Shown: positions 2,153 to 44,431 of the stretch, one piece after another | How the letters are laid out: the number at the start of each line of letters is the position of its first letter | Numbering within the stretch: position 1 is the stretch's first letter | From: an uncultured bacterium | Lineage (GTDB): Bacteria > Nitrospirota > Thermodesulfovibrionia > Thermodesulfovibrionales > Thermodesulfovibrionaceae | DNA: 64,000 nt | NCBI GenBank assembly: GCA_937998865.1 | Contig: CALLBR010000017.1 | Coordinates: 1-64,000 of the forward strand | Direction of reading: 5' to 3' | The notes under the pieces: model-generated | Seen by the model: the letters and a program-made list of their open reading frames with translations, nothing else | Told to the model about the DNA's origin: nothing | The model's database searches: none | Position numbers and translations under genes: made by a program

Positions 2153-2416
2153 CTACAAATATTCTTTACCTGTCTGAACTATTTTAATTTTCTCTGAAAG
2201 ATGAGCCTTTTTTTCTTCAGCAAGGGCTTGTATGTAATTAATAAGATTCCCCACAGCCTGTAGCTCTTCCTTGCTTAAGGAATTAAATTCTTCTGGTTTA
2301 ATTCCTGACAGCAAAGCTAAAGCCTCCTCAAAGCGATCTTCTTTTAAAGCAATTTCTATTTGAATGAGGAGGCTTCTAACCTTAGATTGCTCCTGCAAAG
2401 GTTCTTTTTTGTTCAT
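2153..2416 (-). CDS. Small helical protein at the end of the flagellar operon, FliT-like by position
   Basis: An 87-residue, charged, all-helical protein (IQIEIALKEDRFEEALALLSG; LINYIQALAEEKKAHL) with no cysteine and no signal peptide. Its start lies inside the 3' end of fliS (35-nt overlap), so it is translated with the flagellar operon. Many bacteria place the FliD chaperone FliT directly after fliS, and small size plus helical heptads fit that. The sequence itself is too divergent for a sure assignment. Expected role if FliT: binding the FliD C-terminus in the cytoplasm before export. Alternatively it is a lineage-specific flagellar chaperone. Confidence 0.6.
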   Translation of the reverse strand: MNKKEPLQEQSKVRSLLIQIEIALKEDRFEEALALLSGIKPEEFNSLSKEELQAVGNLINYIQALAEEKKAHLSEKIKIVQTGKEYL

Positions 2417-2807
2417 TCTTTACTTCCTTTTCCTGCTTTTTTATATCTTCCCAGGCTGACTTTAGATTGCTAAGTATATTAATGCATTTTTCAATAATTT
2501 CCACATCATTGAATAGATTAGCCCTTACAAGCTCATTTGCTAAGGTTGTATAAATTATGCTTAAGTTTTCAGCAATCTCTCCACCTCTTTGTTTGTCTAA
2601 AATATCATTAAGATAATAGAGGATATCTGTTGCCTTTCCCAGTTCCTTTGCCTTCTTTGTTACTCTTTCTGGCTCATTAAGTCCCTTTAAAATAGAGTCT
2701 TTTGCAATATTAAGTGCCAATAGGGCCCTGTCATAAAGCATGGTTATGAGCTCTAATCCATCAGCTCCAATAACTTTGCTCTGAAGATATGAATCTACAT
2801 ATGTCAT
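2382..2807 (-). CDS. fliS: Flagellar secretion chaperone FliS
   Basis: A 141-residue protein matching FliS over its length: the N-terminal segment YLQSKVIGADGLELITMLYDRALLAL, central LGKATDILYYLNDILD, and IAENLSIIYTTLANELVRAN are the family's conserved helices. FliS binds the disordered C-terminus of flagellin in the cytoplasm and prevents premature polymerisation before export. It overlaps fliD by 4 nt upstream and the FliT-like ORF by 35 nt downstream, giving the usual fliD-fliS order. The last 20 residues are a lysine/glutamate-rich tail that varies in the family. Confidence 0.93.
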   Translation of the reverse strand: MTYVDSYLQSKVIGADGLELITMLYDRALLALNIAKDSILKGLNEPERVTKKAKELGKATDILYYLNDILDKQRGGEIAENLSIIYTTLANELVRANLFNDVEIIEKCINILSNLKSAWEDIKKQEKEVKNEQKRTFAGAI

Positions 2808-4138
2808 TTCTGTTTTCCTCCTGTCATTTGTGATAAAGATACCATAAAATCTTGAAGTCTCATGCTAATTTGATTCATCTGATTTATAAAAGCTTCAAGT
2901 TGTGCATATTCCTTCCGGAGTCTCTCTTCGTATCTGGAAAGGTAATTTTGAAGAACACTTATTTTTTGATTTATGATACTCATTTGACTTTCACCAATTT
3001 TCCTGTAAGTATCAAGAGAAGTTGCCCACCCATTAAGTTGAACAGAATAGGAATTTTTTAAATTTGAAATAATGTCCTTTAGTTTTTCAGGATTTGAATT
3101 TTTTAGATTATTGAGGGCTTCTGTATTTAGGGATATAGTGCCGTCTTTATCAGAATAGTTTACCAAACCAACATTAATTAAGGGATTAAGAAGTCTAACA
3201 AGCCCAGTTTTTATTGTTACAATGGTGCTGTCTCCTTGAAACTGAGCACCTTTTCCAGTAATTTGATTTATGATGGAGTTTATACCATTGTAGTTAGATA
3301 CAAAATTATTTAAAAAACTGTCAATCTGCGAAAAATCCTCTTTTATTGTTATTGTGGCAGTACCTGTCTCTTTCACATTTATAGTAAGACCACTAATTAA
3401 ATCTGTAAAAACATTGGAAGGAGAAGTTATCTCAGCTGTTGAATTTCCTATTTTAATGGCAGCATTCTGGGCATTCTGAAGAGTTTCAAGAGCACCTATG
3501 TTTTCATCATAAAGCTCGGAAGGAAGACCATTTACTTCAATTACGTTATCATTAGTTCCTGTTTCCTTTGATGATTTAGATGAATCTGCCTCTGTAAGAA
3601 GCAATCTATAATCAGAACCCGTGTAATAGACTGAAGCTTTAATATCATTTTGAGAAGAATTTATGCTATTTACAAAATCCTGCAAAGTCTGTCCTGCTGA
3701 ATAATTTATCTCATAGGTTATAAAGTTTGAACTATCTTTCCAATATCTCAATGTCATGGTACCGGACAATGAAAAAGTCTCTTTTAAGGATGACAGACCT
3801 TTTGTGCTGGCCCGCATTTCTGTTTGGGAAAGTCGTATAACATTGATGGACATAGTAAGATTTGGAGCATTTTTTGTTGCTTCTGCTGATAAGACATTAC
3901 TATTTGATGAGAGAGCTTTTTTGGTTGAAAAAATTTTATCTATATCACTACCTTCAATGAGAGTTTTCAAGCCGTTTAAGGCGCCAAAAAGATTAGAAAG
4001 GCTTGATACCTTCGTCTGAATCAAAGCCTTCTGCTGGTTTAAGACTTGAAGAGGCTGTTGCTTTATTTTCATTAGATTGGCTATTATTGATTCTGTATCT
4101 AGAGCCCCCGTTATGCCTGACATGAAAAGATCAGCCAT
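2804..4138 (-). CDS. fliD: Flagellar filament cap protein FliD
   Basis: A 444-residue hook-associated protein 2. The N-terminal FliD domain starts with GITGALDTESIIANLMKI, and the C-terminal domain holds the typical DKDGTISLNTEALN and LNGWATSLDTYRKIGESQM segments followed by a long heptad region (residues about 390-440, YEERLRKEYAQLEAFINQMN) that forms the leg of the cap. FliD caps the filament outside the cell and folds exported flagellin into place. The start is preceded by a good Shine-Dalgarno and lies directly after the FlaG gene. Length is typical. Transcription probably comes from upstream, since no promoter space exists between flaG and fliD. Confidence 0.93.
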   Translation of the reverse strand: MADLFMSGITGALDTESIIANLMKIKQQPLQVLNQQKALIQTKVSSLSNLFGALNGLKTLIEGSDIDKIFSTKKALSSNSNVLSAEATKNAPNLTMSINVIRLSQTEMRASTKGLSSLKETFSLSGTMTLRYWKDSSNFITYEINYSAGQTLQDFVNSINSSQNDIKASVYYTGSDYRLLLTEADSSKSSKETGTNDNVIEVNGLPSELYDENIGALETLQNAQNAAIKIGNSTAEITSPSNVFTDLISGLTINVKETGTATITIKEDFSQIDSFLNNFVSNYNGINSIINQITGKGAQFQGDSTIVTIKTGLVRLLNPLINVGLVNYSDKDGTISLNTEALNNLKNSNPEKLKDIISNLKNSYSVQLNGWATSLDTYRKIGESQMSIINQKISVLQNYLSRYEERLRKEYAQLEAFINQMNQISMRLQDFMVSLSQMTGGKQK

Positions 4139-4534
4139 TTATACCTCCTTAGAGTAAAAAACTCCCCTTAATTCTTCCATTCTTCTTAAGATCTCCACCA
4201 TCCATTCTGGTGGAATCTGTCTTATTATTTCCTCTGTTCTCATATCAATAATCTTTGAAATAGGCATATCAAGCTCTCTGTCTATGTCTATCTGAAGATA
4301 CTTTTCAAGCATGTTAAATTTGTGCCTTAATTCTTCCATCAATTTATTAAGCTCTTCCTGCGAAACAGATAGTTTTTGAATATCCTTGCTTAGGTCTTTT
4401 TTCACAAGATCCTTATTTTCAATCATTTTACTTATATTATCCTTCTGGGTAACTTGAAGGAGTTGTATATCTAATTCAGCCTTTCTATAAGGGTTAACAA
4501 TTATAAATTCCTTTTCTAAGCCGTTTATTCTCAT
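4139..4534 (-). CDS. flaG: FlaG family flagellar protein
   Basis: 131 residues. The C-terminal third carries the FlaG signature: YLQIDIDRELDMPISKIID followed by EEIIRQIPPEWM, matching the 'V.V.D..T.EVIRQIPPEE' pattern of the family. FlaG proteins affect filament length and are commonly encoded between flagellin and fliD, as here. The N-terminal half is a lysine-rich helical stretch unlike most family members. The gene ends adjacent to the fliD start (no gap). A terminator hairpin separates it from flagellin upstream, so it depends on read-through or on a promoter of its own that I could not find in the 59-base gap. Confidence 0.75.
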   Translation of the reverse strand: MRINGLEKEFIIVNPYRKAELDIQLLQVTQKDNISKMIENKDLVKKDLSKDIQKLSVSQEELNKLMEELRHKFNMLEKYLQIDIDRELDMPISKIIDMRTEEIIRQIPPEWMVEILRRMEELRGVFYSKEV

Positions 4535-6195: not shown

Positions 6196-6224
6196 GCTTT
6201 AAACCTCCATGTTTTTTTATCTTC

Positions 6225-6293
6225 GGATGCCTCCTGCATCCAGACAGCTTTAGGTGAGTATTTGCAGCTTCACCTCCTTTCCACCCTGCTGTC
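6225..6293 (-). promoter_or_regulatory. Folded flagellin leader with two nested stem-loops, possible CsrA sites
   Basis: In the 5' leader on the minus strand there is a perfect 6-bp stem GGATGC/GCATCC (6225-6230 with 6236-6241) whose 5-base loop reads AGGAG. Upstream, GACAGC/GCTGTC (6243-6248 with 6288-6293) encloses AGGTGA/TCACCT (6252-6257 with 6270-6275), hiding a decoy AAGGAGGTGA. A GGA-bearing loop plus a GGA within the true Shine-Dalgarno (TGGAGG) is the arrangement CsrA uses on flagellin mRNA in Bacillus. CsrA and FliW are not in the window, so the regulator is inferred. Confidence 0.5.
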
Positions 6294-6303
6294 TTAATTT
6301 TTT

Positions 6304-6330
6304 ATATCGGAGAATTTAAATAAAAGTTTA
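6304..6330 (-). promoter_or_regulatory. Sigma-28 (FliA) promoter of flagellin
   Basis: Read on the minus strand: TAAA (6330-6327), exactly 15 bases, then TCCGATAT (6311-6304). The FliA consensus is TAAA-N15-GCCGATAA, so the -35 matches fully and the -10 matches at 6 of 8 positions with correct spacing. It lies about 110 bases before the flagellin start codon, leaving room for the folded leader. Confidence 0.8.
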
Positions 6331-27234: not shown

Positions 27235-28782
27235 TTAAGCTATATGATAATTAAGATGTCTTTCCCACTCCTCTTTTGTTATTTCTCTCACAAATTGAAT
27301 GGCTTCTTTCTTTGTCAATTTAGGGTTATTATATTTTAAACCTAAATATTCAGTCATGGCGTAATATAAATCAGTATTATCTGTGAAGTTTTTTAACTTT
27401 GTACCAAAGGACTCTTTTCCATTTATTACAGTAAGCTGATCTTCGGCTGTGTGATTTGTTGAGGTAAAACCAATATTTCCTCTTCTTACCTTTGCTGGCT
27501 TTTTTAGTTTATCTTCTTTTTCGTAATCATAAACACTTTTTCTTAGAATATTTCCCATTGTTGCCTCTGGCTCATACCAAATATCATTTACAATTAAAGT
27601 TCTTTTATTGTTCAATTTTGAGTATATTTCCTCTGCTTCCTCTGAAGAAATCTCCATTTTAGTATGAAACTCAAATATATCTTTAACTGTCTTTAAATCT
27701 TGATTTCTCATTTTTTTAATCATATATTCAAAGGATGCTGTGTTGGTGTATTTCATTAATGCTTCAGTAGCGTCATTGTACTCTGGTCCTGTACCATTGA
27801 TACCAAATCCAGAATTTCCATGATCAGAGGTCAATATCATCACCACTTCAGGATTTTTACCAATAAAATCCTTAACAACTGCGATTGTTCTGTCTAATTC
27901 GTAACAATCCATCATAGCTCCGAAAGCATCATTAGCATGACAGGCATGATCTATTCTACCAGCTTCAATAAGAAGTACAAACCCTTTTTTATTCGTTGAT
28001 AGCTTCTTTAAAGCCACTGCTGTCATTTCTGGCATGGAAGGTTGCTTATTGCCCAGTTCTTTATCATTCAATCTGTCTACAAAATAACTAATGTGAGAAG
28101 AATTGAAAACACCTAAAAGAGGAGCATTATAATCAACTTTTAATAAATCCTCTCTACTGCGTAAGATCCTATACCCTTTTGAGGAAAATTCTTCATATAG
28201 ATTTCTACCATCTTTCCTTTTTTCTGGGTTAAAGTGTCTGTCACCTCCACCCATAGCTACTTCCAAGCTACTATTAAGTAAATCTATAGCTATGTTATCC
28301 TCATCATCTCTATTTTCATTATGACTATACCAAGCAGCTGGAGTAGCATGAGTAACTCTTGTAGTTGTAACAAACCCGCAGGAATATCCTTTTTTACTGG
28401 CTAACTCAAAAAGAGTAGTTAGTTTTCTTCCATCAGGCAACACAGCTAAATATCTATTGGCAGTTTTGGAACCTGTTGCCCAGGCTACAGAAGCAGGAGC
28501 AGAGTCAGTTACCACAGAAGATAAAGAAGAGGTATTTTGGAGAAAAATCCTTGTTTTATCATCTCTTAACAGTAAGGATAAATTACTCTCTTCCTTAAAT
28601 TTTCTCTCAATAAACTCGTTCATGGCTTTCATTACTCCAAGAGGAAAACCGTCGCCTACTATAAATACAATCCCCTTTGCTTTAATCTTTTGGGTGTCTA
28701 TGCTTGCAAAAACTTCCTCTGATGAAGCTATCAAGGAGATAAAGCTTGCTAAGGATGCTTTTAAAAAATCTCTTCTGTCCAT
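27235..28782 (-). CDS. Alkaline phosphatase with Tat signal
   Basis: 515 residues. The N-terminus DRRDFLKASLASFISLIAS is a twin-arginine signal, so the enzyme folds with metals before export to the periplasm. Alkaline phosphatase motifs follow: FIVGDGFPLGV (metal Asp), VVTDSAPASVAWATG (nucleophile Ser), THATPAAWYSH, EAGRIDHACHANDAF, LTSDHGNSG and TSTNHTAEDQL (last metal His). It releases phosphate from organic esters. Two tandem copies of AAGGAGGTAATT precede the start, the nearer being the ribosome site. It sits between the GT21-type glycosyltransferase and the metallophosphoesterase in the phosphate-controlled operon. Confidence 0.93.
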   Translation of the reverse strand: MDRRDFLKASLASFISLIASSEEVFASIDTQKIKAKGIVFIVGDGFPLGVMKAMNEFIERKFKEESNLSLLLRDDKTRIFLQNTSSLSSVVTDSAPASVAWATGSKTANRYLAVLPDGRKLTTLFELASKKGYSCGFVTTTRVTHATPAAWYSHNENRDDEDNIAIDLLNSSLEVAMGGGDRHFNPEKRKDGRNLYEEFSSKGYRILRSREDLLKVDYNAPLLGVFNSSHISYFVDRLNDKELGNKQPSMPEMTAVALKKLSTNKKGFVLLIEAGRIDHACHANDAFGAMMDCYELDRTIAVVKDFIGKNPEVVMILTSDHGNSGFGINGTGPEYNDATEALMKYTNTASFEYMIKKMRNQDLKTVKDIFEFHTKMEISSEEAEEIYSKLNNKRTLIVNDIWYEPEATMGNILRKSVYDYEKEDKLKKPAKVRRGNIGFTSTNHTAEDQLTVINGKESFGTKLKNFTDNTDLYYAMTEYLGLKYNNPKLTKKEAIQFVREITKEEWERHLNYHIA

Positions 28783-28809
28783 TTTAATTACCTCCTTAAT
28801 TACCTCCTT

Positions 28810-29982
28810 TTAGTGATTAAAAGCTGTTTTAAGCTTATTAAAGATAATCCTCACAGAAGATAAATTATTGTCCTGAATTATCATTGTATCTTTACCAATT
28901 TTGTAGATATTACCCCTCCAACTTAGCCTACAGCTAATGAAAGGTACAAACCAAATGATGGCAGTTATTAGGTCTTTTATGGGTATTAGCAAAACAGAAG
29001 TATTTAAAGGAGCTTTAATTAGCCTACTTGTATAAAAATCAAAAGATATTTTTACCAGAAGAGTCATTAGAAAAACTGTAAGGGACATTCTGGAAAAGTT
29101 ATCCAAAAGGGGGATGAAAGAGGATAGAAAGAGGGGATTAGATAAAGGTTCTGTAAAATATTTTATTCCTCCTATCTTCCATCTTATCTTTGCCCATCTC
29201 GTATGTCTATTAAGAAATCTACTAAAACTCCAGTATTCATTTACATTTTTAACCATATAACTACTGAGAACAACTCCTTTGCCCTTTTCATGCATAAGCT
29301 TACCCAGCATATAATCTTCTGCCAGTATGTCCTTTATAGCATCAAATCCTCCGATTTCCTCAAAATCTCTTTTTCTCATGAGCATTGATTTGCCAATACT
29401 ACAGGGTATTTTGAGAAATTGATCAAGTAAACATGTGGCAAGTATAACAAAGGAATTTAATTGAAGATTCTCCAGTTTTGCACCTATGCTTCTTCCTGAA
29501 ACTCCCACTATTAGATTTGTTACAAGTCCGGTGTTTTCAGTCATGCAAGAAACTGTTTTTTTCAGATAATCCTTTTCTACATAAACATTACTATCACTTA
29601 TAAGGAAGTAATCATATTTGGAGTTTCTATAGGCACTTATCATGTTTTTCACCTTTGGATTTAGTGCTCTTTCAGAGCCATCTACTATTATCCTTACTAA
29701 ATGGGGATACTTATTTTTTATTTTCTCTGCTACTCTATAGGCAGGATCATTAATATCTTGCAGGGAAAAAATGACTTCATATTCAGGATAGTCTTGTTTG
29801 CAAAAGCTCTCAAGATTGTCAAAAAGATTATCATCAATACCTTTTAAAGGCTTAATTATGGATACAGGTGGAAGAAAGGAGGAATGAGAATTTTCACTTA
29901 GTTTCTTTCTTAATGCCAGAATTTGCAAAAAATAAATCGTTATGCTTACTAAAACTAATGCTAAAATTATCCATAAAAACAT
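28810..29982 (-). CDS. GT21-type (ceramide glucosyltransferase/HpnI-like) membrane glycosyltransferase
   Basis: 390 residues: an N-terminal helix (LWIILALVLVSITIYFLQIL), a GT-A catalytic domain with SIIKPLKGIDDNLFDNLESF, the DxD-like YDYFLISDSNVYV, LAEDYMLG (third Asp) and the Q/RxxRW-type RHTRWAKIRW, then about three C-terminal helices. This order is that of ceramide glucosyltransferase-like enzymes (GT21), which include the hopanoid protein HpnI. It likely adds a sugar to a membrane lipid. No hopanoid or sphingolipid genes are nearby. Placed behind a Pho-box-like array with a phosphatase, it may make a glycolipid that replaces phospholipid when phosphate is scarce. Confidence 0.8.
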   Translation of the reverse strand: MFLWIILALVLVSITIYFLQILALRKKLSENSHSSFLPPVSIIKPLKGIDDNLFDNLESFCKQDYPEYEVIFSLQDINDPAYRVAEKIKNKYPHLVRIIVDGSERALNPKVKNMISAYRNSKYDYFLISDSNVYVEKDYLKKTVSCMTENTGLVTNLIVGVSGRSIGAKLENLQLNSFVILATCLLDQFLKIPCSIGKSMLMRKRDFEEIGGFDAIKDILAEDYMLGKLMHEKGKGVVLSSYMVKNVNEYWSFSRFLNRHTRWAKIRWKIGGIKYFTEPLSNPLFLSSFIPLLDNFSRMSLTVFLMTLLVKISFDFYTSRLIKAPLNTSVLLIPIKDLITAIIWFVPFISCRLSWRGNIYKIGKDTMIIQDNNLSSVRIIFNKLKTAFNH

Positions 29983-42551: not shown

Positions 42552-42688
42552 CTTAAATTTTTGATGTTCCTCATCTGTCAAATCTCTAAGACTTTTGGAG
42601 ATTATTCAACGCTAAAAAAAGGAGGTGAGTAATTTTTTTAAAACTTTTTTATTTTCATTATTAAAATTTTAAGAAAGGAGGTTGAAGT

Positions 42689-44431
42689 ATGGTAGAACAA
42701 AAGAAAGGGGTAAGTGAAGATTGGTTAGCCTTCTGGTTAGCTGTTATTATCTTTATTATCTCTCTATTCTCTTATGCAGGCATCGATCCCCTGGGTTGGG
42801 TAGTGAGCACAAAAGAGTGGACAGATTCAAGTAAAGCTATAGCTCCAACTGGGAAAATTTATCAATCTGTGAAAGGTGAGATTACAAAAATTGATGGAAA
42901 CAAAATCACAATTAAAAAAGCTGATGGAAAAGAAGAGGCAATAACAGTTAAAGACGCTTCAATTTACAAGGTTGGCGATATCTATGAAAAGAAAGGACTC
43001 TCAGGCTTTGCCTCTCTAGTTCTAACCTATCTTTTTATGGCTGTTGTATTCTCTATAGGTGCCGCTTTAATGCGAGCAAATATAGTTAAATTTAACATAG
43101 GTTTCTTCTTTGTATTCTGGCTCAGTTATCTCTGTTGGTTTATTGGCCATTATGCCTATTTTGCAGCTACAGACCCAAAGAAAGCCGGAGTTCCTTGGTC
43201 ACTAAAACTTACTGGTGAGGGTGGGTTTATATTTGCACTTTTGCTTGGCTTAATAATTGGTAATTTCTTCAGAGGCTTTGCAAAATTCATTAGTGAAGCA
43301 TTAAAACCAGAGTTCTACATAAAAACAGCCATAGGTTTAATGGGTGCCTTGATTGGTTTGAAATCAGCAGAAGCCTTTGGACTTGCCTCTGCAGTTCTTT
43401 TCAGAGGTCTTTGCGCCATTATCGAAGCCTATCTAATTTATTGGGCAGTTGTCTATTTCATTGCAAGAAAATGGTTTAAATTCAGCAGAGAATGGGCAGC
43501 TCCACTTGCCTCTGGTATATCCATTTGTGGTGTATCTGCAGCCATTGCAACAGGTGGAGCCATTAAAGCAAGGCCTGTTGTCCCCATCATGGTTAGTTCT
43601 CTGGTAGTTATCTTTGCTGTTATAGAGCTTATTATTCTTCCTTTCTTTGCTCAGGCTTTTCTTTGGAAAGAACCTATGGTAGCTGGTGCTTGGATGGGAC
43701 TTGCTGTTAAAACAGATGGTGCTGCCTTTGCATCCGGCGCAGTAGTTGATGCCCTTATTAGGGCAAAAGCAGAGACTGCTGCTGGAATAAAGTATGAACC
43801 TGGTTGGATGCTAATGGCAGCTTCTACAACAAAATTGTTCATTGATATATTTATCAGTATATGGGCTTTTATACTTGCTTATATATGGTGTGCTAAGATT
43901 GAATGCAGCCCAGGTGAGAGAGTTTCAGGAAAGGAAATTTGGAGAAGATTTCCAAAGTTTGTCATGGCTTATGCCATAACCTTTATAGTCATCCTTCTTA
44001 TCTCAGCACCTCATGCTCCGAAGATTACGCCAGTTGATGCTCAAATTAAAAACATAAACAAAGAAATTGCAGCCTTAGAAAAACAGCTTGTTGTAGCCAC
44101 TGATGAAGCTCAAAAAGCCCAGATTACAGCAAATATTGACTCAAAGAAAGCACAAATTAAAGAGCTTGAGACAAGCATCAAAGACTCAAAGAAGATAATA
44201 TCTCAAACAAAAACTGCCACAGCTGGAACCAATTCCTTGAGAGTGCTCTTCTTTTTAATCACCTTCTTTACTATAGGAGTTATGTCTGACTTTAGAAAAC
44301 TATGGGAAGAGGGAATTGGTAGATTAGCGTTAGTATATCTTATTTGTCTGTTCGGCTTCATTCTGTGGATCGGACTGTTAATATCTTATATTTTCTTCCA
44401 CGGAGTAAAACCTCCGATAATAACTGGTTAA
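42689..44431 (+). CDS. YeiH-family (putative sulfate exporter type) membrane protein with two inserted domains
   Basis: 580 residues; about twelve helices. The family signature is GISICGVSAAIATGGAIKA (about 272-290), with GAWMGLAVKTDGAAFASGA following, as in YeiH/UPF0324 proteins, whose substrate is unproved. Two parts are unusual. After the first helix, residues about 58-102 form a periplasmic beta domain (VKGEITKIDGNKITIKKADG) closely like one in the secreted protein at 59838. Before the last two helices, residues about 448-510 form a charged coiled coil (INKEIAALEKQLVVATDEAQ). The protein is thus much longer than the usual 330-350. AAAGGAGG precedes the start. It is followed by a 56-residue membrane protein and a terminator, making a two-gene unit. 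Confidence 0.78.
   Translation: MVEQKKGVSEDWLAFWLAVIIFIISLFSYAGIDPLGWVVSTKEWTDSSKAIAPTGKIYQSVKGEITKIDGNKITIKKADGKEEAITVKDASIYKVGDIYEKKGLSGFASLVLTYLFMAVVFSIGAALMRANIVKFNIGFFFVFWLSYLCWFIGHYAYFAATDPKKAGVPWSLKLTGEGGFIFALLLGLIIGNFFRGFAKFISEALKPEFYIKTAIGLMGALIGLKSAEAFGLASAVLFRGLCAIIEAYLIYWAVVYFIARKWFKFSREWAAPLASGISICGVSAAIATGGAIKARPVVPIMVSSLVVIFAVIELIILPFFAQAFLWKEPMVAGAWMGLAVKTDGAAFASGAVVDALIRAKAETAAGIKYEPGWMLMAASTTKLFIDIFISIWAFILAYIWCAKIECSPGERVSGKEIWRRFPKFVMAYAITFIVILLISAPHAPKITPVDAQIKNINKEIAALEKQLVVATDEAQKAQITANIDSKKAQIKELETSIKDSKKIISQTKTATAGTNSLRVLFFLITFFTIGVMSDFRKLWEEGIGRLALVYLICLFGFILWIGLLISYIFFHGVKPPIITG

Follow-up and report, generated by a model that had tools for sequence, protein, structure and literature searches.

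The flagellin mRNA of a heat-loving sulfate reducer of the genus Thermodesulfovibrio starts with a structured leader in which a small GGA-looped hairpin (SL2) and the Shine-Dalgarno sequence (SD) very probably form a CsrA/FliW switch for flagellin homeostasis, since the stems covary among relatives, csrA and fliW are both present, the hairpin recurs widely in the phylum, and csrA, fliW and the hairpin are all missing in 17 of 17 Aquificota/Thermodesulfobacteria genomes with related flagellins. The type of switch is already known; the lineage is new. The leader itself is real and beyond chance, and the CsrA-type control proposed for it in a first-pass annotation of this DNA is supported by the comparisons described below. 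What that annotation missed is that the sequence it called a decoy, an extended SD followed by no start codon (hereafter the orphan), is a separate, widely conserved and promoter-proximal module, which tracks complementarity to the ribosome, not GGA.

In the mechanism we propose, a CsrA dimer would span two GGA motifs, one in the SL2 loop and the other 26 nt further downstream in the SD, and would thereby block binding of the 30S subunit. During flagellin export FliW would bind CsrA, freeing the mRNA, while a stop in export would let cytoplasmic flagellin take FliW away. Less certainly, the orphan AAAGGAGGTGA near the 5' end may pair with the 3' end of 16S rRNA, and a 30S subunit parked on this start-less element might shield the abundant flagellin mRNA from 5' decay, independently of CsrA.

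Leader architecture and covariation within the genus

The features found in the window (the whole stretch of 64,000 nt that was analysed) are collected in Table 1. The promoter reads TAAACTTT-N11-TCCGATAT, or equivalently TAAA-N15-TCCGATAT, on the minus strand, exactly as in the annotation, which had called it a near-perfect FliA promoter, and fliA scores over its own cut-off in the same genome. The stretch from the -10 element to the ATG (6195-6193) measures 108 nt and holds, from 5' to 3', SL1 with AAAGGAGGTGA, SL2 with its AGGAG loop, and the SD. The annotated AGGAG loop and 6-bp stem were both recovered, with the qualification that the "near the start" of the annotation corresponds to a loop GGA 39 nt upstream of the start codon (the SD GGA following 26 nt downstream of it), and the GGA that it placed inside the true SD is invariant in the genus. 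Rfam gave no match over the gathering score in the window, and no known family covers the leader.

Table 1. Positions of the flagellin leader elements and neighbouring genes in the window
Feature	Position	Strand	Basis or detail
Sigma-28 (FliA) promoter, -35 element TAAACTTT	6323..6330	-	Sequence, relatives, fliA in genome
Sigma-28 promoter, -10 element TCCGATAT	6304..6311	-	Sequence, relatives
SL1	6242..6294	-	6294-6289:6247-6242 (outer stem), 6286-6280:6258-6252 (inner stem)
Orphan extended Shine-Dalgarno AAAGGAGGTGA	6270..6280	-	SL1 apical loop, first A also in inner stem
SL2, 6-bp hairpin GGATGC-AGGAG-GCATCC, proposed upstream CsrA site	6225..6241	-	Folding, relatives
True Shine-Dalgarno GGAGG, proposed second CsrA site	6204..6208	-	GGAGG in 14/14 genus leaders
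Flagellin (fliC) gene, 533 aa	4594..6195	-	Flagellin_N, 130 bits
Downstream ORFs of the flagellin cluster	2382..4534	-	Presumably flaG-, fliD- and fliS-like

The nearest named relative of the flagellin is that of Thermodesulfovibrio sp. N1 (78% identity), whose leader is identical to that of one genome in the window's own genus. The ORFs that follow are presumably flaG-like (4139-4534), fliD-like (2804-4138) and fliS-like (2382-2807), names that we assign from their sequence.

Folding of the 111-nt leader yields -30.5 kcal/mol (z = -3.5), a value equalled by 1 of 200 shuffles. A Flagellin_N match was obtained in 15 of 16 genus genomes, the match in G008 being only to a FlgL-type protein, and promoter, SL1, SL2 and SD are all retained in the 14 flagellin-bearing genomes. 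A covariance model gave one full-length match per genome, at the flagellin gene, in all 14 (95-123 bits), these being the same 14 leaders from which it was built; no further full copy of the leader was found with it in the 16 genus and 245 phylum genomes. Fourteen weaker genus matches (below 28 bits) were rejected as leaders of other genes, including pilin and DAHP-synthase-like ones, or as coding sequence, while a weak phylum match in G057 (25 bits) falls exactly on a flagellin leader of another family. Three leaders (L106, L108 and L111), upstream of what we take from its sequence to be a DAHP synthase gene, show a strong hairpin with a run of T behind it and look attenuator-like.

Covariation of the stems in related species, which the annotation had named as a check on its reading, was evident. 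With the stems conserved in 14/14 genus genomes, SL1 and SL2 together contain 7 pairs (13 cells) with compensatory changes, against 2.2 pairs (2.7 cells) in shuffles, none of 500 of which scored as high, and controls with slid register gave at most 1; as the alignment rows are related, the changes represent few independent events. In SL2, 84 of 84 cells are paired, three pairs carry double changes (stem variants GGATGC/GCATCC, GGACGC/GCGTCC, GAACGC/GCGTTC and GCACAC/GTGTGC) and the AGGA loop is present in all 14 leaders. The outer stem of SL1 is paired in 91.7% of cells with zero double changes, and the inner stem in 91.8% with four double-changed pairs.

The GGA hairpin and its probable regulators across Nitrospirota

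The two regulator genes that the annotation suggested seeking in the same genome were both found there, adjacent to each other: csrA (77.6 bits, over the Pfam cut-off; 80 codons with a TTG start) and fliW (102.8 bits) overlap behind flgL. They lie on the window's own contig, outside the window itself, at 105.9 and 105.4 kb, respectively, with fliA at 123.4 kb (G000:C17). The closest solved relatives include both partners of the complex 5dmb. Leu4, Arg44 and Asn55 of CsrA are kept in all 29 sequences parsed from 32 loci (the own genome, 30 other Nitrospirota loci and Acetoanaerobium noterae), and we take the first two to be RNA-binding residues. In B. subtilis, exchange of Asn55 for Asp leaves CsrA deficient in FliW binding (PMC6529632).

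The wider sample comprised 78 distinct flagellin genes from 69 Nitrospirota genomes, those with many flagellins being represented by one to three copies each; the FlgL-like, non-flagellin rows G254, G264 and G265 were removed before counting. A hairpin with GGA in a loop of 4-7 nt occurs in 66 of the 78 leaders, where dinucleotide shuffles give an expectation of 4.9, and in 49 of the 52 leaders with a recognised promoter (3.0 expected). The stems vary widely in sequence across the phylum, the loop retaining its GGA; in 38 of 43 measured leaders this GGA and the ATG are 34-50 nt apart. At other ORF starts in the window and the fetched loci such a hairpin was seen in 12 of 167 cases (7%). The 12 leaders that lack it belong mostly to extra flagellins of family f6 in csrA-bearing genomes.

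Both csrA and fliW are present in 58 of 61 Nitrospirota genomes, a set chosen mainly for having flagellin, from which G264, G265 and L011 (a genus locus with the same leader as G006) were left out. The three genomes in which both are missing are G010 and G011, which are 56 and 63% complete, and G307, which is 92% complete in 260 contigs; the G307 leader (L183) has a GGA hairpin and a 7-nt SD-like element even so. Among 33 loci with related flagellins, 17 that lie outside the genus are from Aquificota/Thermodesulfobacteria-type genomes. Neither csrA nor fliW was found in any of these 17 genomes, for which completeness figures are lacking, and none of the 17 leaders has the GGA hairpin, the sigma-28 -10 element lying 35-51 nt before the ATG. 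As presence and absence follow phylogeny, this distribution amounts to few independent events. The work would extend to a further phylum a CsrA-FliW checkpoint on flagellin that, in the portion of the literature covered, has its experimental basis mainly in Firmicutes and Campylobacter, and it would do so with covariation and with a natural control in relatives that have neither csrA and fliW nor the hairpin.

The orphan Shine-Dalgarno element

The orphan in the window matches the generic anti-SD over 11 nt and lies 27 nt from the end of the -10 element, a distance counted from the -10 and not from a mapped start; the organism's anti-SD was assumed, because a search of this assembly for its own 16S 3' end gave nothing. 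No start codon stands at SD spacing behind it, and its GGAGGTG is present in 14/14 genus leaders. Across the phylum, 8-12 nt identical to AAAGGAGGTGATCC and at least 22 nt before the start were found in 43 of 78 leaders (2.2 expected), in 36 of the 52 promoter-recognised leaders (1.8 expected) and at 3 of 167 other ORF starts; the totals over the 78 leaders, hairpin counts included, and those of the duplex comparison below still contain two rows (G156 L163_1 and G140 L187) with wrong gene starts, whose "orphans" are true SDs. A slightly different pattern search returned 43 orphans located 26-75 nt after the -10 element (median 34) and 79-178 nt before the ATG. The standard deviation is 10.9 nt for the distance from the promoter and 25.8 nt for that from the start codon, with coefficients of variation of 0.30 and 0.25, respectively, so that in relative terms the element is no tighter to the promoter. 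All 43 lie within a stem of the predicted fold at a mean unpaired probability of 0.65, a figure that has no control set. The five genomes of family f27, and others, have the hairpin without the orphan.

The duplex of the orphan with the generic anti-SD reaches -13 kcal/mol in 45 of 52 leaders (7.4 expected) and surpasses the one formed by the gene's own SD in 50 of 52, both figures including the two mis-called starts. From the sequences, the element is more likely to serve 30S docking or mRNA stabilisation in the manner of a STAB-SD than to be a third CsrA site, and a STAB-SD-like stabilising 30S dock is the function that we tentatively assign to it. The advantage of its duplex over the true SD would also suit a standby site, on which the 30S subunit docks before passing to the true SD, with CsrA at SL2 and SD blocking the transfer, and the orphan does lie on the same transcript upstream of the structured start region. 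This we consider somewhat unlikely, as 79-178 nt to the start codon is a large distance for a transfer and standby sites are not known to need a strong SD.

A role of the orphan (AAGGAGGTGA) as a third CsrA site, in which the SL1 loop, the SL2 loop and the SD would jointly hold CsrA dimers, is unlikely too. The GGA of the orphan is found in 14/14 genus leaders within a predicted loop, and AAGGA is similar to ANGGA, a motif reported among the targets of C. jejuni CsrA (PMC4894983); yet the orphan is conserved over the 8-12 nt that match 16S rRNA, while SL2 loops keep only GGA. Furthermore, G259, G270 and G271 have no GGA in or beside the element and still pair with the anti-SD at -13.2 to -17.6 kcal/mol, which is why ribosome docking is preferred over CsrA binding, and G115 and G272 lack the GGA of the element itself, another GGA standing a few bases upstream.

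The annotation had the decoy buried in a second nested stem. SL1 is indeed two-tiered and contains the element, which is, however, not clearly buried, the covariation-backed pairing placing AAGGAGGTGA in the apical loop. A competing pairing, AGGTGA:TCACCT, would bury it at nearly the same energy in the window (-20.9 against -21.4 kcal/mol), and a two-state switch, in which GGGTGGA or AGGTGAA competes for the TTCACC strand and so exposes or hides the orphan, could also be read from position 48, which pairs as G-U in 12/14 leaders under one fold and as A-U in 12/14 under the other. We nevertheless regard such a switch as improbable: among the genus relatives the hiding fold has one double-changed pair against four, and of the other 13 species 10 have it weaker by 1.6-5 kcal/mol, with G012 giving equal energies, G010 a stronger hiding fold and G013 a misaligned row.

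That the stems are simply the ordinary structure of an unregulated leader is very improbable in view of the covariation, the shuffle counts, the 7% background at other ORF starts and the absence of the hairpin in csrA-less relatives, even with FliW/CsrA control in Nitrospirota being a prediction here. Finally, a short regulatory leader peptide behind the strong SD that the orphan provides was rejected as hardly credible, as 5 of 42 genuine orphans have a start-like codon 3-12 nt behind them (7 of 44 when the mis-called starts in G156 and G140 are counted), below the roughly 38% reckoned by chance; the frames so opened span 1-20 codons, and the window has no such codon.

Elements resembling the orphan were also seen elsewhere. 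A second AAAGGAGGTGA without a start codon is located at 42618-42628 on the plus strand and precedes by 56 nt the real SD of a 580-codon ORF (42689-44431), in a region (42618-42689, plus strand) that folds no better than shuffles, and tandem SDs (AAAGGAGGTAATTAAGGAGGT) occur at 28782-28810 on the minus strand before the ORF 27235-28782. By eye, the pilin leaders of 6 of the 13 pilin-matching genus genomes carry AAAGG(A/G)GGTG or AGGAGGTG about 75 nt before the start, with a hairpin and then the SD behind it, the G009 leader being outside the parsed set; the sequence is GGGGGTG in two of these six, which have further GGAs close by. In most of the type IV pilin leaders inspected (L230, L231, L235, L238, L240 and L242) a TTCC..GGAA hairpin precedes the SD. 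The window's own genome gave no pilin match at the E-value used.

It is conceivable, if somewhat short of probable, that Nitrospirota flagellin mRNAs combine two independent modules, a stabilising 5' orphan 30S dock and a gate of CsrA hairpin and SD, and that the orphan module is at work in mRNAs for other abundant proteins as well, type IV pilin among them. If so, docking of ribosomes without a start codon would be a general means of long mRNA life in Nitrospirota. In any case the orphan, an extended SD that lacks a start codon and is conserved in many genera, would offer an easily mutated element with which protection by a parked 30S subunit could be studied outside Firmicutes.

Comparison with known systems

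No paper joining Thermodesulfovibrio with CsrA, or Nitrospirota with flagellin and CsrA, was found in a search covering mostly open literature, and one source on Nitrospirae with FliW or CsrA mentions fliW only in passing, in magnetotactic bacteria. The known systems below are likewise compared as far as the available portions of the cited sources describe them. The hag leader of B. subtilis, under CsrA-FliW-Hag control, is bound by CsrA at two sites, the SD lying within one of them, with FliW as the antagonist (PMC7652899, PMC6529632). The Thermodesulfovibrio leader resembles it in its two proposed CsrA sites, one over the SD, and in the presence of fliW, and differs in that csrA-fliW follows flgL on the chromosome; the orphan extended SD is present in the Thermodesulfovibrio leader, the hag leader sequence being outside the comparison.

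The two-site layout that the annotation had read as CsrA-type, with one GGA in the SL2 loop and one in the SD, has the same geometry as C. jejuni flaA and C. difficile fliC. The flaA 5'UTR combines a GGA in a hairpin loop with a GGA at the ribosome-binding site and shows compensatory changes in relatives (PMC4894983), all of which it shares with Thermodesulfovibrio. It differs in its 45-nt leader, in which the ribosome-binding site lies inside the loop of a second hairpin, and in that no upstream stem-loop or orphan SD is described in the portion of that source available. In the fliC 5'UTR of C. difficile, CBS1 (-45 to -34) and CBS2 (-20 to -9) are spaced as the sites are here, while the reporter needed only the SD site (PMC11898703).

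In A. noterae, where genes resembling fliW and csrA lie alongside, the leader contains a GGCATGGATGCC hairpin and an AAGGAGG SD but, unlike that of Thermodesulfovibrio, no orphan SD. By eye, no clear leader of the same type was seen at the flagellins of B. halotolerans, B. licheniformis, Rossellomorea, Paenibacillus and Pontibacillus in plasmid records. In four Bacillales plasmid records (L223, L224, L225 and L227) a CsrA gene adjoins the flagellin gene.

For the orphan, the nearest counterpart is the STAB-SD of cry3A/cryIIIA, a strong start-less SD near the 5' end that stabilises the mRNA (PMC3997798, PMC5371835); a polypurine mRNA stabiliser is also on record for mycobacteria. The orphan shares with STAB-SD the missing start codon and, judged by a generic anti-SD and by its distance from the -10 element, appears to share the strength and the position near the 5' end of the mRNA. 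STAB-SD has been described for Bacilli, whereas the orphan of Thermodesulfovibrio sits inside a structured leader of the CsrA type.
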